From positions 124,001 to 188,000 of the forward strand of contig NZ_CP012850.1 in the NCBI RefSeq assembly GCF_000802205.1: a stretch of 64,000 nt of DNA, written 5' to 3'. Position 1 is the stretch's first letter. Every line of letters starts with the position of its first letter. Positions 12,504-20,890 of the stretch are shown here, in pieces. The DNA is from Candidatus Nitrosocosmicus oleophilus. Its GTDB lineage: Archaea; Thermoproteota; Nitrososphaeria; Nitrososphaerales; Nitrososphaeraceae. The position numbers and the translations under genes were made by a program. The notes beneath the pieces were generated by a model that saw nothing but the letters and a program-made list of their open reading frames with translations, did no database searches and was not told the origin of the DNA.

Positions 12504-12941
12504 TTAGAACAAACTTTTTGGTACGTCATCTAATTCGTAGTAGTAACCTAATATATTATCAACTGTGTGTTCTAGTTGAGTATTACTGTTTATTAGAACG
12601 AATACAGTTTTCTCAAATTCATAGATTTTTAGTATTCGCAAGTTTTCATATTCTAAAACTACCCATTTTAATCTTCCAAGAGTACTATTATTTACCATTG
12701 TTGTATGCATTACTTTATCTGTTTGATATTTTTTATCATTTCGGATATGGTTCATGTTCAGACCTAAAGCTGGGACTATTATAGAATCAACATAGTTTTT
12801 ATCGATGTTGGAGTTCTTTGCAACATACAGTTCTTTCATTTGGGAGGATACCAAAATAAAAACAGCTAAAATGTCATCATCAACTTCTACTAGATGCCTT
12901 ATTTTATCATAGTTTTTATTTTCTGCATTATGTTCATTCAC
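12504..12941 (-). CDS. Hypothetical protein, Roadblock/LC7-like fold possible
   Basis: 145 residues, soluble. The pattern (N-terminal helix, then VDDDILAVFILVSSQMKELYVAK, later LKWVVLEYENLRILKIYEFEKTVFVLI) resembles the small alpha/beta Roadblock/LC7 or profilin-like proteins common in these archaea. This is a structural impression, not a firm family call. It lies upstream of the antiporter in the same orientation but probably has its own transcript. Confidence 0.5.
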   Translation of the reverse strand: MNEHNAENKNYDKIRHLVEVDDDILAVFILVSSQMKELYVAKNSNIDKNYVDSIIVPALGLNMNHIRNDKKYQTDKVMHTTMVNNSTLGRLKWVVLEYENLRILKIYEFEKTVFVLINSNTQLEHTVDNILGYYYELDDVPKSLF

Positions 12942-13294: not shown

Positions 13295-13663
13295 TTATTC
13301 TGGTTTCTTTGCGTAGTCCCCCATACCAGTAAAGTCAATAGAAACACATGGTTCATCCCCAATCACCCAAGCATCGTGCCCTGGCGGGATTATGGCAGAA
13401 TCTCCTGGTCCCCCTTCAATTTCCGTTCCATCATCCATCCTTACTTTCATTCTTCCTGAGATTATTACTGAAGTATGTGGAGCCTGACAACTGTTTGTTT
13501 TAACTAGTGGTTTGACACATTCCCCCCAACTCCAACCGGGCTCGAGAGTTGCTCGACCAATTATGACATTGCCCAGGTTTACAATTTCAACCTTTCCCTT
13601 TGCAAAGGTTCTTACTTCATCAGGAGAGTCGAAACTTTTTGCTAGTATTTTTGTTGATGACAT
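13295..13663 (-). CDS. Small cupin-domain protein
   Basis: A single beta-barrel cupin: RATLEPGWSWGECVKPL, then HTSVIISGRMKVRMDDG, then GPGDSAIIPPGHDAWVIGDEP. The Gly-Asp-x(4)-Pro-x-Gly-His motif 2 is clear; motif 1 keeps only part of the metal ligands. I set the start at ATG 13663 (MSSTKILAKS) because the longer reading from 13726 would run through the tandem promoter repeat at 13707-13739. Enzymatic function unknown. The promoter repeat links it to the neighbouring redox genes. Confidence 0.78.
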   Translation of the reverse strand: MSSTKILAKSFDSPDEVRTFAKGKVEIVNLGNVIIGRATLEPGWSWGECVKPLVKTNSCQAPHTSVIISGRMKVRMDDGTEIEGGPGDSAIIPPGHDAWVIGDEPCVSIDFTGMGDYAKKPE

Positions 13664-13706
13664 CTTTATTATCAAAAGTAGGTTTGTATTACTTTGATTA
13701 TAAGCA

Positions 13707-13739
13707 TTATTCCATATCTGTTCCAAATTCGTTCCAGAT
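13707..13739 (-). promoter_or_regulatory. Three tandem 11-bp repeats upstream of cupin gene
   Basis: Read on the minus strand the units are ATCTGGAACGA, ATTTGGAACAG and ATATGGAATAA, directly contiguous, followed at once by the TATA-like GCTTATAATC. The same arrangement occurs at 14604-14636, 16914-16946 and 17386-17407. Confidence 0.75.
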
Positions 13740-13941
13740 TTTTGAATTACTCCGACTATTTGTATTTCACAGAATGATTTCCTGTTATATCATGAAGTAT
13801 CGATGTACGATCTTACCTTTAATTTAAACAAGAATGAAGATGATATGAGTAAAATTTTTCACAGATTATTACTATTAATCACAGTAAGGTGGATCGACTG
13901 ATTTCTTCCAATTTCTTTGTCATTAAACTTTTAGTTCAGCA

Positions 13942-14571
13942 CTACCAAATAGAACTGAAAAATGCCTTACACCATATTAGAGCGGTATCGTACTTTGATA
14001 AATCAGTACCAGGAGGTATATCGTAATTTTGATTTCCATTATTAGCTTTTAGTCTCCCAAGATTCACAAAATCTACTGCACTTTTATCTGTTGATAAATA
14101 AACATACAAATCAGGTCCATTTGTTACTTTTAGATTTTCTAATCTCAGTACATTTGTATTGTCCTGGAGGGGAATAATTTTTGCTGTACCTTCTGCATTG
14201 TGAATTCCATCATTAACACCGACAAATGCACCTGAAATTAGTGGTTGATTTGATTCAAATGAAATAAAAGTTTTATTCATAACTTCATCAATCTTGCGGC
14301 TGTTGTCATTATTTGAATTTGCATATTGAATCATCAGCTGGTTTTTCTGAGAATTGCTCATGTTCTCTGCGACTCTGACCCTCTCATCCTCACTCATCTT
14401 GTTATATTTCTCAAATGAAATTGAAGAAGCCGAATTGGAAGGAAACTGCTCATTTATTTCTGTTGATATGAACAATGGCGAGGCTAGATAAAGTGCTATC
14501 ATCAAGCCGACGATACCAAGTGTTGGATAAGCAATTTTCTTAAATAGGGAGTAATGTCCATTACTTTTCAT
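13942..14571 (-). CDS. Membrane-anchored DM13-domain protein
   Basis: An N-terminal TM/signal anchor (about residues 14-31) is followed by a charged helical linker and a DM13 domain (about 105-209): ISGAFVGVNDGIHNAEGTAK, LENLKVTNGPDLYVYLS, YDTALIWCKAF. The near-C-terminal Cys in WCKAF is the conserved Cys of DM13. The family is proposed to take part in extracytoplasmic redox reactions. Its promoter repeat is shared with the CcdA/DipZ operon, supporting a role in the same process on the outer face of the membrane. Confidence 0.85.
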   Translation of the reverse strand: MKSNGHYSLFKKIAYPTLGIVGLMIALYLASPLFISTEINEQFPSNSASSISFEKYNKMSEDERVRVAENMSNSQKNQLMIQYANSNNDNSRKIDEVMNKTFISFESNQPLISGAFVGVNDGIHNAEGTAKIIPLQDNTNVLRLENLKVTNGPDLYVYLSTDKSAVDFVNLGRLKANNGNQNYDIPPGTDLSKYDTALIWCKAFFSSIW

Positions 14572-14603
14572 AATGAACAGATTAGATTGAAAGGTAATAA
14601 GGG

Positions 14604-14636
14604 ATCTTCCCTATTAGACCCAAATCTATTCCAAAT
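14604..14636 (-). promoter_or_regulatory. Three tandem 11-bp repeats upstream of DM13 gene
   Basis: Minus-strand units ATTTGGAATAG, ATTTGGGTCTA and ATAGGGAAGAT, contiguous, ending about 33 bp before the start codon with a TATA-like CCTTATTACC in between. Confidence 0.65.
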
Positions 14637-14757
14637 ATTGGTTTTGGTTTTGGAATATTTTTTTGCAAAGTACAGTTAGTTGTAATCATGCAAAATAAGA
14701 TCCTAAAATTGAATTAAATGGTTTGATATATGTATCGAATTTCAGATCGTTCCGGTC

Positions 14758-15972
14758 TTATCCGAATGTAAAAGTATATATCTGAAATCCCTTGCCTTTA
14801 ACATCAATGATTATAGATCTTGGTTCATAGTCGTCGTAAAGTCCTACATTGTATAGCCGTTGTTTGTCCACCGTAACGTTTCCATCCTTTCCGATATCAA
14901 TAGCGTGATTATCAGTGTCTATTTTTGACCTGTTGTTCTCCGAAATAGACACTTGCTGACCATTACCTGATGCAACAATGTTGATCGCTTTTGCGTAATA
15001 GGTCAGAATGATTTTACCATCATCACTAATTAATTCCATATTATCTTTATTGTTCTTCCAAATTCCGTCAAAGTATACGATATTAGGTTCCAATGACGTT
15101 TTATTTGGATCAAATTTGTAGTCTACTGATTCATCCGGTTGGAAGCTCTCTATATTACCCAACGGGGATCTGGCCGTAGAATATCCAAGATATATTTCAG
15201 GCGAGAGATTTTGACTAAGGTTTGTATAATCAAGACTATCTGATGTCATATTAGTCAGCATTGATTTGTTTAGGTTAAATGTTATTTCGGTCTGGTTTTC
15301 TAATGAGGCCCTTTCTGCAAGTAGTGTTTGAATAGTTTTTTCGGATTCATTGTATCCACCTTCTCCAATGTGATCGTCTCTAATATATCCCTGAGAATCT
15401 ATAAGATAATGTCTTGGCCAGTAATTGTTGCTATAAGCATCCCATGTCTTGTGTTCGCTGTCGAGGACTACAGGATATTTGATACCAAATTCTTTAACAG
15501 CATCCTGTACATTCACCAGATTTTTTTCAAAATCAAACTCTGGTGAATGTACCCCGACAATAACAAAACCCTGGTCTGAATATCTATCATACCAATCGTT
15601 AAGATATGGAATAGTTCTGATACAGTTTATACAGGTATATGTCCAAAAATCCAAAAGTACTACCTTGCCTTTTATATCTGACAGTTTTACAGGTTGGTTG
15701 TTTGCTGTATTTATGTAAGAATCAATTCCAGTCAATTCAGGAGCCTTTACAAACCCACTTTTATCTATGCTAGTAAACGCTGTTTTATTTAACTTTACGG
15801 TTATCAGATCACCACTCTTAATTAATGACTTGTCGACCATGTCTTCTAATTGCTTTTGTTGTAAATAGCTTTGAGAGGTATTTACATAAAAGTTAAAGTA
15901 AATCCCAAATCCAGTAATTAACGAGATTACCGCAACGGCAGTAAGAATTGCACTGATATTATCTTTGTTCAT
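14758..15972 (-). CDS. DipZ-type membrane-anchored thioredoxin with C-terminal beta domain
   Basis: Extracytoplasmic thiol-disulfide protein. An N-terminal TM helix (about residues 8-30) is followed by a TlpA/DipZ-like thioredoxin domain (about 70-225) with redox motif Cys-Ile-Asn-Cys in FWTYTCINCIRT, typical for DipZ. The remaining 170 residues match the CBM-like C-terminal domain of mycobacterial DipZ (SPEIYLGYSTARS, VDKQRLYNVG, IYTFTFG end). In DipZ the CcdA membrane part is fused in front; here CcdA is the separate gene 26 bp upstream, making a split DipZ operon. CcdA should keep it reduced with electrons from cytosolic thioredoxin. Confidence 0.88.
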   Translation of the reverse strand: MNKDNISAILTAVAVISLITGFGIYFNFYVNTSQSYLQQKQLEDMVDKSLIKSGDLITVKLNKTAFTSIDKSGFVKAPELTGIDSYINTANNQPVKLSDIKGKVVLLDFWTYTCINCIRTIPYLNDWYDRYSDQGFVIVGVHSPEFDFEKNLVNVQDAVKEFGIKYPVVLDSEHKTWDAYSNNYWPRHYLIDSQGYIRDDHIGEGGYNESEKTIQTLLAERASLENQTEITFNLNKSMLTNMTSDSLDYTNLSQNLSPEIYLGYSTARSPLGNIESFQPDESVDYKFDPNKTSLEPNIVYFDGIWKNNKDNMELISDDGKIILTYYAKAINIVASGNGQQVSISENNRSKIDTDNHAIDIGKDGNVTVDKQRLYNVGLYDDYEPRSIIIDVKGKGFQIYTFTFG

Positions 15973-15998
15973 AATTTAATCATCTCATCTCCTAATCG

Positions 15999-16838
15999 TC
16001 AATTGCCAATCAGCGGTCCAATGAATGGAATATTAACGAAAAGGGTTAATTGGTTGAAAAATATTAACAATCCTATTACTATTAGAATACTCCCCATTAT
16101 GAGATTGAAATATTTTAAATGTTTTGTCAGCTTCTTGATTACTCCGGTTGCTTGTGAAAAAAACGCTCCTGTAATTAAGAACGGTATTCCCAAACCTAAT
16201 GAATATGCCAATAACAAGTTGTAAGCCGTTCCAGGGTTTGTGGCAGCTAATGTAAAAGTACTGCCCAAGATGGGTCCTACACAAGGGGTCCATCCTGCGG
16301 CAAAAGCTATGCCAAATACAAAGGAAGTGATATAACTTGTCTTGAATTTAGGAATTTTAGTAAACTTTCTTTCCATATTAAGTCGACTTATTTTTAAAGA
16401 TAAAATCAAATTTGTACCAAATGCGATAATAACAATCCCTCCTATGTAGGACAAATATTGTTGAAAATTATTTCCAATGGAAGTAGCAAAAATACTATTC
16501 AGAATGACACCCAATACTGAAAATACGAGTGAAAATCCCAGTACGAAATAAACTGTGTTGATAAAAATATTTAGTCGTGCCTTTTTTGAAATAAATACTA
16601 TTTGATTACTATTTTGATTTTTATTTTCTTGGTGGTTACCTTGGACATTTTGAATGTAATCATTTGTTGCCTCTCTAATTGATGAGCTGGACAGATAGGA
16701 CAAAAATCCAGGAATAATGGGCAGAATACATGGAGAAAGAAATGAGCCAAGACCTGCAAGACCTGAGAGTAAAACGCTAGTTTCTAATGCCAATATAACA
16801 TCACCAACCTCCTTTCTTTGTAAGGTCCGTGGTTGCAA
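15999..16838 (-). CDS. CcdA/DsbD-type cytochrome c biogenesis membrane protein
   Basis: Polytopic membrane protein that carries reducing equivalents outward. The two reactive Cys are visible in SFLSPCILPIIPG and AGWTPCVGPILG, each in the family Pro-Cys context; about six TM helices. Length is slightly above the norm because of a hydrophilic insert (about residues 55-90, Asn/Gln-rich) between helices 1 and 2. The TTG at 16838 gives a long N-terminus. A strong AAAGGAGG ribosome site lies inside that reading, about 14 nt before another TTG, giving LETSVLLSGLAGLGSF, so the shorter start is plausible. First gene of an operon with the DipZ-like thioredoxin. Confidence 0.86.
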   Translation of the reverse strand: MQPRTLQRKEVGDVILALETSVLLSGLAGLGSFLSPCILPIIPGFLSYLSSSSIREATNDYIQNVQGNHQENKNQNSNQIVFISKKARLNIFINTVYFVLGFSLVFSVLGVILNSIFATSIGNNFQQYLSYIGGIVIIAFGTNLILSLKISRLNMERKFTKIPKFKTSYITSFVFGIAFAAGWTPCVGPILGSTFTLAATNPGTAYNLLLAYSLGLGIPFLITGAFFSQATGVIKKLTKHLKYFNLIMGSILIVIGLLIFFNQLTLFVNIPFIGPLIGN

Positions 16839-16913
16839 TTACAATTGTCAATGCAATACAAATCAAAAGGTTTTTGTTCATGGAAACATTAATCATAAAA
16901 ATGCATTAATAGT

Positions 16914-16946
16914 TATTTCCAGATCTATACCAAATCTATACCAGAT
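16914..16946 (-). promoter_or_regulatory. Three tandem 11-bp repeats upstream of ccdA-like gene
   Basis: Minus-strand units ATCTGGTATAG, ATTTGGTATAG and ATCTGGAAATA, contiguous and nearly perfect. A TATA-like element follows within about 15 bp. This is the clearest example of the four. Confidence 0.75.
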
Positions 16947-17054
16947 CTTAATTGACAAAAAGGATATTTGATTTTATTTAAAGGACCGGTGAGTCATACA
17001 CTGCTCCTAAAAAACAACAATTCGAAAACGAGAATAGATGATTGACTCTGGATT

Positions 17055-17342
17055 TTATTCCAGAGTTATCTTTAGGAATATGATAAAGCCCGCCATTTCA
17101 GCAATGGAAATGGTTAGCAGATAAGGTACAAGTACATCCGAAAACAGCATGGACATGATAATATATGAATAAACAGATATTATGCTGTTTATCATAAGTA
17201 AGCTGCAAAAGAAGATCAAGCCTAAAGTAAAGTTGGCCCTGCTGTTTCGGTAAATTTTTGCAAATGTAAAAACCAAAGCACCTAGTAATCCCAAATTCAC
17301 CAAATTGATAAGTGCATTGATTGTACCCATCCAAACATCCAT
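17055..17342 (-). CDS. Small three-helix membrane protein
   Basis: 95 residues with three strongly hydrophobic segments (about 8-25, 38-60, 68-92), no conserved Cys, family not certain. Small three-helix membrane proteins next to wHTH genes are common in archaea (the DUF7521-like type in haloarchaea), which fits the neighbour here. Its promoter carries the redox-cluster repeat, so it probably belongs to that regulon. Confidence 0.65.
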   Translation of the reverse strand: MDVWMGTINALINLVNLGLLGALVFTFAKIYRNSRANFTLGLIFFCSLLMINSIISVYSYIIMSMLFSDVLVPYLLTISIAEMAGFIIFLKITLE

Positions 17343-17385
17343 TTAACTAAATCGTATGTAATTGCAGTGTATGTATTTATTTATT

Positions 17386-17407
17386 TATTTCCAGATCTGT
17401 TCCATAT
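17386..17407 (-). promoter_or_regulatory. Two tandem 11-bp repeats upstream of small membrane gene
   Basis: Minus-strand units ATATGGAACAG and ATCTGGAAATA, followed by AAATAAATA as TATA-like sequence. A third unit would overlap the end of the wHTH gene and is not convincing. Confidence 0.65.
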
Positions 17408-17413
17408 TCTAAT

Positions 17414-17725
17414 CTAGGTTTTGTTTAGTCTGGATTTTTGGATTTTATCTCTTACTTCTTTAAATGCCTCCATGTTTACCTCTAAATAAGTTGATATAAA
17501 GTACAAAATACCATATTTTTCTCCTTCTTTTGTAATTAAATTATTTTTTTCCAACACGTGTATATGGTGTTGTATAGCCTTATAGTCAATTTTGATAATA
17601 TCAGATAATTGATTGATATTGTATGGTTGCTCAAATAGCAGTTCTATTATAGAGATTCGATTCATGCCGCCCCTTGACCCTGCAAATAAAAACCAAAACA
17701 GTTTCTTAGCGTTAGGGTCGGCCAT
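17414..17725 (-). CDS. ArsR-like winged-helix regulator
   Basis: 103 residues with a single wHTH (about 22-80): RISIIELLFEQPYNINQLSD, then YKAIQHHIHVLEKNNLITKEG. No metal-binding Cys motif is present, so it is probably not a classical metal sensor. It sits at the upstream end of the redox cluster in the same orientation and is the nearest candidate for the protein that binds the 11-bp repeats. The repeat is missing from its own promoter, which speaks against simple autoregulation through that site. Confidence 0.82.
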   Translation of the reverse strand: MADPNAKKLFWFLFAGSRGGMNRISIIELLFEQPYNINQLSDIIKIDYKAIQHHIHVLEKNNLITKEGEKYGILYFISTYLEVNMEAFKEVRDKIQKSRLNKT

Positions 17726-19636: not shown

Positions 19637-20890
19637 CTATCTACCGCCTTTTTGTGCTGCTGCGTTGTTTCCAGTGTTTGTTTGACTTTGTATGTTTGCG
19701 TTGTTTCCAGAACCAGCAGTATTGCCACCAGATACTACATCACTACCTTGGTTAGAGGATTGTGATTGGCCTATGCCTTGATTGGCTGAATTGCCACCAC
19801 TACCACTACCATCTTGTTGTGCCAGTGCATTGTTTCCGCTATTTTGTTGGTTTTGTGCATTGAAATTGTTACAAGAATCAAAAGTTCCCGAACCTGATAC
19901 ACATAGAGCATTTTGGTCAGAAGATTGTGCTTGATCTATTCCTTGGTTAGCTGTGTTGTCATCATCGTCATCGTCATCGCTGCCACCACTTTGTGCTGCT
20001 GCGTTGTTTCCAGTGTTTGTTTGACTTTGGTCACTTAGATTGTTACATGAAAAAAAGGTGCCGTCACCTGATACACAAACACCGAGTTGGGTTGATATTT
20101 GTGATTGGCGTATTCCTTGAGATGCTTCGTTACTATCATCATTGGAACTAGAACTAGAACTATCGTCGTTACTACTGTCACTATTACTACTGTCACTATT
20201 ACTACTGTCACTATTACTACTGTCACTATTACTACTGTCACTATTACTATTGCCATTGTTATTATCGAATACAATATTCTCGGCGGATTGGAGATTAGTT
20301 ACACATACAGCTTCCAACTCACCATTATCGTTAAATTGTGGTGCCAGTTTAAAAGACACTACGTCTTTAACGCTGGTTCCAGGTTTTATTGTCAGGTCAG
20401 CTCCACTCAAGGCATCTGTGCCTGAGAATGAAGATGGAAGTTTTGTCAGGTCAGCATTGTCATCTCTAATATCGACCTCTCCGGGGGATTCAAAAGTTAT
20501 AGATTCTACCTTTGAATCATTTCCGCAATTATCAGAATCTTGGCTCAATGTTACATAGTGATTATGCCATACTGGATCACTGGCATTTGATTGTTCTTCA
20601 CTATCTTGAACTCCTGCATGAGTTGTACTAACTACCACAGCATCTAATCCCTAGTCAGTTAATACACCATATCCAAAGGCACCTCCATCACCATTCGTTG
20701 GGATGTGTCCATGAGTTTCAAGAAATGCACTCATTTCGTCTGAATCTGCACCTATCGTTGCTTCTCTGATATTGAGAAAGTCATTCTTATCTCCAGCTGA
20801 ATTAGAAGACGTAGATGAAAATGCTAGACTTGAAGGTGATATCGCTAATACTAAAAGCATAAAAATAACAGGAATGAATTGATAATTCAC
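19637..20890 (-). pseudogene. Secreted repeat protein interrupted by an in-frame TAG
   Basis: Reading from 20890 gives a signal peptide (FIPVIFMLLVLAISPSSLAF) and a mature start, then TAG at 20653-20651 after GYGVLTD. The same frame continues without shift as GLDAVVVSTTHAGVQDSEEQ to the stop at 19637, so one 417-codon gene is cut by a single nonsense codon. The second half has a Ser-Asn-Asp low-complexity run and three copies of a repeat of about 50 residues (QGI-Q-Q-S--Q, CVSGSGTF-SCNN, QTNTGNNAAAQ) that resembles curlin-like beta-solenoid repeats. The C-terminal part alone lacks a signal. Alternatives: assembly error, phase-variable allele, or readthrough. Confidence 0.7.
20170..20249 (-). 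repeat. 15-bp tandem repeat coding Ser-Asn-Asp run
   Basis: Five or so near-exact units of ACTACTGTCACTATT on the plus strand, coding SSNSD repeats on the minus strand inside the interrupted secreted gene. Confidence 0.8.

Follow-up and report, generated by a model that had tools for sequence, protein, structure and literature searches.

Winged-helix regulators of the ArsR/SmtB type are known to bind inverted repeats as dimers, not direct repeats. Direct repeats with an 11-bp period are bound by winged helices of the OmpR/PhoB type, such as PhoB at the pho box and PhoP of M. tuberculosis, which sit head-to-tail, cooperatively and in a spacing-dependent manner on arrays extendable to three or four units (PMC4832192). 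In M. tuberculosis PhoP sites, a 7-bp word is followed by a 4-bp spacer, and three or four units are bound more tightly than two (PMC4832192). In archaea, CopR of Pyrococcus, of the Lrp type (PMC7830388), and OxsR of Haloferax, of the TrmB type (PMC9426492), activate from directly upstream of the BRE. In Nitrososphaera viennensis, a copper-limitation promoter motif, TTCSGSMTTTGWACYANT, is located at positions -35 to -70 (PMC7785015).

The redox cluster described here lies in a 64-kb stretch of the genome of Candidatus Nitrosocosmicus oleophilus (hereafter the window). Candidatus Nitrosocosmicus (genus g1 in our sample) belongs to the family Nitrososphaeraceae. Ammonia-oxidising archaea (AOA) are major soil nitrifiers and, to our knowledge, hardly any of their transcription factors has a known operator. 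Four promoters of the cluster, those of the TM95, CcdA, DM13 and cupin genes, carry arrays of 11-bp units. As in OmpR/PhoB systems, the units follow one another as direct repeats with a period of about one helical turn and lie upstream of the core promoter. The putative binder, a winged-helix protein (wHTH), would likewise occupy them head-to-tail, cooperatively and with a dependence on spacing, on arrays extendable to three or four units. Unlike those systems, the arrays stand at archaeal BRE/TATA promoters, wHTH is a single-domain protein of 103 aa with an ArsR-like fold and no receiver domain, and its partner is a 95-aa protein with three predicted transmembrane helices (TM95), not a cognate histidine kinase. 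By analogy, the arrays most likely work like PhoB/PhoP direct repeats, with wHTH lying outside that family.

The N. viennensis copper motif also comes from a soil AOA, with an ArsR gene and one for a DsbD protein among the genes concerned (PMC7785015). It differs in sequence, in the genes that it precedes (NVIE_014xxx) and in having no 11-bp tandem array. Identity of the two was ruled out, the array unit YAGATYTGGAA being a different word. We found neither an archaeal direct-repeat operator of such form nor an ArsR/small-membrane-protein pair in the open-access papers searched, in line with the initial annotation, which knew of no such operator.

Arrays at the promoters of the redox cluster

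The cluster is transcribed from the minus strand in the order wHTH, TM95, CcdA-like, TlpA/ResA-like, DM13, cupin. The wHTH gene (17414-17725) is followed by that of its constant partner TM95 (17055-17342). The CcdA-like membrane electron carrier (15999-16838; DsbD_TM) probably starts at a TTG near 16793, with homologues starting near LETS. Domain search identified the next protein (14758-15972) as a TlpA/ResA-like thiol-disulfide oxidoreductase with a C-terminal Thioredoxin_10 domain. The DM13-domain protein (13942-14571; PF10517) is probably exported. The cupin protein (13295-13663; Cupin_2/Cupin_3) starts at the ATG at 13663; a TTG start at 13726 is unlikely because it would lie inside the array. 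The cluster had been described as CcdA/DipZ/DM13/cupin. The "DipZ" corresponds to separate CcdA and TlpA/ResA-like Thioredoxin_10 proteins. Downstream of the cupin gene, a minus-strand gene (12504-12941) encodes a 145-aa protein without Pfam match; in the sister genome G016, a frameshift splits the corresponding gene. Elsewhere in the window, a perfect 15-bp tandem repeat of 5.4 copies (20169-20249) is found in the gene of a Ser/Asn/Asp-rich protein.

Read on the gene strand, the unit is YAGATYTGGAA, with its GGAA end facing the TATA box. The three-unit array 5' of the cupin gene (ATCTGGAACGA.ATTTGGAACAG.ATATGGAATAA, minus strand, 13707-13739) is directly followed by the TATA-like element CTTATAAT (13697-13704), an arrangement found likewise in relatives. 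Its end lies 46 nt from the ATG, and it is kept at cupin orthologues of other Nitrosocosmicus. The DM13 array (ATTTGGAATAG.ATTTGGGTCTA.ATAGGGAAGAT, minus strand, 14604-14636), next to the TATA-like element CTTATTA (14595-14601), is the weakest of the four. It includes two GGG units and appears in a GGA version in the sister genome. The CcdA array (ATCTGGTATAG.ATTTGGTATAG.ATCTGGAAATA, minus strand, 16914-16946) is the most widely conserved, as is its neighbouring TATA-like element CTATTAAT (16905-16912) conserved. TM95 is itself under an array, a conserved two-unit one (ATATGGAACAG.ATCTGGAAATA, minus strand, 17386-17407) located in the wHTH/TM95 gap, with a TATA-like AT-rich element at 17376-17388 where relatives show ATAAGTAAATAAA.

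The four arrays thus lie where the initial annotation had placed them, each ending at a TATA-like element on the minus strand, and the 11-bp register is exact at all four sites. The consensus ATYTGGAAYAG proved looser than announced: it is exact in 13718-13728 and 14626-14636 only, and the other units carry from one to several mismatches. In the scoring matrix, unit letters vary, the TGG core and the preceding AT being most strictly conserved. Hidden inverted repeats were considered and rejected, as the palindrome AGATCT arises only with the right variable base and is not conserved. In the proximal unit, GGAA stops 4-5 bp short of the TATA box, overlapping the BRE expected there. The arrays are located immediately upstream of BRE/TATA, as are archaeal activator-type sites.

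A 26-codon ORF on the minus strand (16801-16881, MNKNLLICIALTIVIATTDLTKKGGW) separates CcdA from its array. Leader-like ORFs of about 25-36 codons occupy the equal position in relatives (L095-L098, L100). This ORF may possibly be a leader peptide or a start-coupled ORF.

Conservation of the arrays in Nitrososphaeraceae

The matrix used to score arrays in the window was built from other species, with neither this genome nor its sister G016 in the training set, and the scores were compared with those of 60 dinucleotide-shuffled versions of the window. The three top 33-mers are the triple arrays, with scores of 42.2 (16917), 39.3 (13710) and 19.6 (14607), all above the shuffle maximum of 14.8. 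The pair at 17389 is among the best 22-mers (26.3, versus a shuffle maximum of 20.2). The whole genome (3.43 Mb) was scanned by pattern, mismatches being allowed. With up to two of them, matches to the pair pattern are restricted to this cluster; occurrence at random places, which would have spoken against the initial annotation, was not observed. The count in this genome (G000), 3, equals that of the reversed-pattern control, 3, so location and conservation carry the case, not the count. In cluster loci selected for their gene content, the spacing between same-strand units is 11 bp in 33 cases and 22 bp in 12, every other spacing being seen once or twice. No inverted arrangement of units was found in these loci, opposite-strand pairs corresponding to the trivial AGATCT overlap.

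A CcdA match is present in 49 of the 70 genomes of the family. Arrays are found 5' of CcdA in genera g1, g2, g3, g5, g6, g7, g9 and g12 with identical register. The contact between TATA box and gene is also the same, except in g12, where the gene start is further off. Throughout the family, the orthologous genes preceded by arrays are TM95, CcdA-TlpA, DM13 and cupin; further array-bearing promoters belong to DUF7482 proteins, additional DM13 proteins and one TlpA paralogue. For the DUF7482 genes of C. N. oleophilus itself, the pattern search found no array. In a census of 78 arrays, nearly all are ordered GGAA-TATA-gene. Most lie 34-37 or 42-47 nt from the ATG, a distance that fits archaeal transcripts with a short leader or none. 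That the repeats are direct, helically phased, adjacent to BRE/TATA and confined to promoters is borne out. Their presence in orthologous clusters across Nitrososphaeraceae answers, in favour of the initial annotation, the question of whether relatives lack them. Some TM95 promoters of g6 show just one clear unit.

Nitrosocosmicus sp. SS has its DM13 and cupin genes some 80-90 kb away from CcdA, and each is preceded by a triple array of its own. These distant arrays favour a regulon over local duplication. A functionless origin of the arrays, by chance or by local sequence duplication, could draw on the AT-rich genome and on the number of pair matches, no greater here than in the reversed control; it is at odds with scores above those of the shuffles, with a geometry kept over genera and with arrays that precede the same genes at distant places. 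Chance is ruled out by the shuffle scores and the 11/22-bp spacing. The chance or duplication reading, which sequence conservation already refutes, is vanishingly improbable. The arrays are real and conserved, in one orientation and register, fixed beside BRE/TATA and linked to the wHTH-TM95 pair.

In genome G018 (L075, 5678), CcdA and TlpA are absent and a CcdA-type array with its TATA box remains in the TM95/DM13 gap, apparently a promoter left after deletion.

The wHTH-TM95 pair and its paralogue

wHTH matches PF01022 (HTH_5) with 33.8 bits, against a cut-off of 22, and HTH_metalloreg with 30.9 bits, below its cut-off of 55. Its model (mean pLDDT 94.8) shows an N-terminal helix, a winged helix and a long C-terminal helix, in an ArsR-like arrangement. 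Foldseek top matches are HlyU, CzrA and SmtB. wHTH thus shares fold and HTH_5 domain with ArsR/SmtB proteins (HlyU, CzrA, SmtB, Phr). It departs from them in having no recognisable metal- or thiol-sensing site (Cys/His ligands) and no cysteine in its 103 aa, in being paired with a membrane protein, and in the direct-repeat character of the proposed operator, with same-strand spacings of 11/22 bp only. The wHTH and TM95 genes are a neighbouring pair throughout the order, Nitrosopumilaceae included. Pfam and PDB searches gave no family for TM95.

A paralogous pair, wHTH2-TM2 (+TlpA2), is accompanied by arrays of the same geometry in which TGGG replaces TGGA. In C. N. oleophilus, it lies at about C1:959.6-960.3 kb (wHTH2 itself at C1:959954-960253), near the TlpA paralogue (L242, C1:956000-964000). 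A divergent 371-aa gene of this locus is also under a TGGG array. In genome G006, one such TGGG array reads AATCTGGTGTA.ATTTTGGTGTA.ATTTGGGAATT, then CGCTTAAATAA; the wHTH2 locus of this genome (L243) also contains a CHRD-domain gene and a Met-rich 83-aa gene. In the 70 genomes, the TGGG-type pattern has 32 matches versus 2 for the reversed control, and 19 of the 32 are no more than 0.83 kb away from a wHTH2 gene. Two further matches are 5' of CcdA, in genera g8 and g10.

The recognition helix opens, in its first turn, with DYKT in nearly all wHTH2 and in the cluster wHTH of g10. wHTH proteins beside TGGA arrays mostly have DYKA, with a few DYKL or DYKS. In a tree of about 100 columns, the g10 protein falls within the cluster clade, apart from wHTH2. 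Because g10 (DYKT, TGGG) groups in this way, a change of operator type seems to have gone along with a change of regulator type twice, on separate branches. At many further positions, too, the two DYKT cases depart from the DYKA proteins. The arrays of the wHTH2 module and the association of DYKT with TGGG lend support to the ArsR-like gene at 17414-17725, proposed from the start as the nearest candidate regulator.

The main difficulties for wHTH as the binder are arrays lacking an orthologue of the cluster wHTH. The cluster wHTH, CcdA and TlpA have disappeared from G006, which has kept the TM95 and DM13 arrays; its cupin gene is frameshifted, with the spacing of the array lost, and it has three wHTH2. 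G013 and G014 retain an array before a TlpA paralogue while lacking a good orthologue of wHTH. These persisting arrays are what another binder would explain, be it a different wHTH or an alternative TFB that recognises an extended BRE, the wHTH gene being a mere neighbour. A TFB would also fit the proximal unit, which is the most constant and adjoins the BRE, and the array found upstream of a TFB-like gene in genus g5 (L184, L188). It would, however, have no use for the same word repeated upstream at 11-bp steps. Moreover, TGGG arrays adjoin wHTH2-TM2 pairs and operator type tracks wHTH type on two branches. We consider a different binder quite unlikely. From these sequence comparisons, the cluster-encoded wHTH is the likely binder of the arrays. 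Taken as predictions, a real and conserved operator with its regulon, and wHTH as candidate regulator, are well supported.

Probable activation, possible repression and a proposed membrane partner

Our preferred reading, which we hold to be somewhat probable, is that the arrays are the operator of a small extracytoplasmic thiol/electron-transfer regulon, bound cooperatively by wHTH and activating transcription. wHTH would bind one unit per helical turn, with all units on one DNA face, and its head-to-tail placement would make binding cooperative. One unit per turn in a single orientation fits such binding on one face. With the proximal unit 4-5 bp from the TATA box, bound wHTH could touch and recruit TFB/TBP. 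Activation is our first choice because the array sits directly upstream of BRE/TATA, where CopR and OxsR activate. The resemblance to these two activators lies in the site and in their targets, which are metal or redox genes; their sites are semi-palindromic or CG-rich and the proteins belong to other families.

The same operator and the same protein could also serve repression, the bound wHTH blocking TFB until a signal releases it. In favour of this, GGAA comes within 4-5 bp of the TATA box, over the expected BRE, and ArsR-family proteins mainly repress. Among the closest solved folds, CzrA and SmtB are repressors, whereas HlyU is an activator. The array runs away from the start site and leaves TATA box and TSS uncovered, additional upstream units would be of little use in occlusion, and CopR and OxsR activate from the equivalent position. 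Repression is rather unlikely, though the main alternative to activation by wHTH.

With less confidence, we propose that TM95 is the membrane partner of wHTH, sensing the state of the envelope or holding the regulator back. Being the most constant partner of wHTH and also a putative target, TM95 is plausible as a membrane sensor or antagonist, a purely inferred role.

The present analysis predicts an operator together with its regulon and a candidate regulator, and carries a built-in specificity contrast of TGGA/DYKA versus TGGG/DYKT. If the prediction is true, an ArsR-type fold is able to read helically phased direct repeats, as PhoB-type regulators do. More tentatively, and with confidence somewhat short of even, we envisage an AOA family of paired ArsR-fold wHTH/3-TM genes, duplicated as a unit. 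The wHTH would stack head-to-tail on tandem 11-bp repeats next to BRE/TATA, which would make the arrays the pho box of these archaea, the membrane protein would relay the redox state of the envelope, and the recognition helix would set the choice between TGGA and TGGG.

The wHTH-TM95 pair points to a membrane-coupled regulatory pair common to soil and marine lineages. wHTH with the same recognition helix occurs in Nitrosopumilaceae, where the pattern search gave no arrays above noise near the pair. In one Nitrosopumilus MAG (L287, 5725-7089), a DM13 gene, a divergent wHTH gene and the gene of a 3-TM protein follow in succession, and the DM13 promoter carries two imperfect units 11 bp apart.
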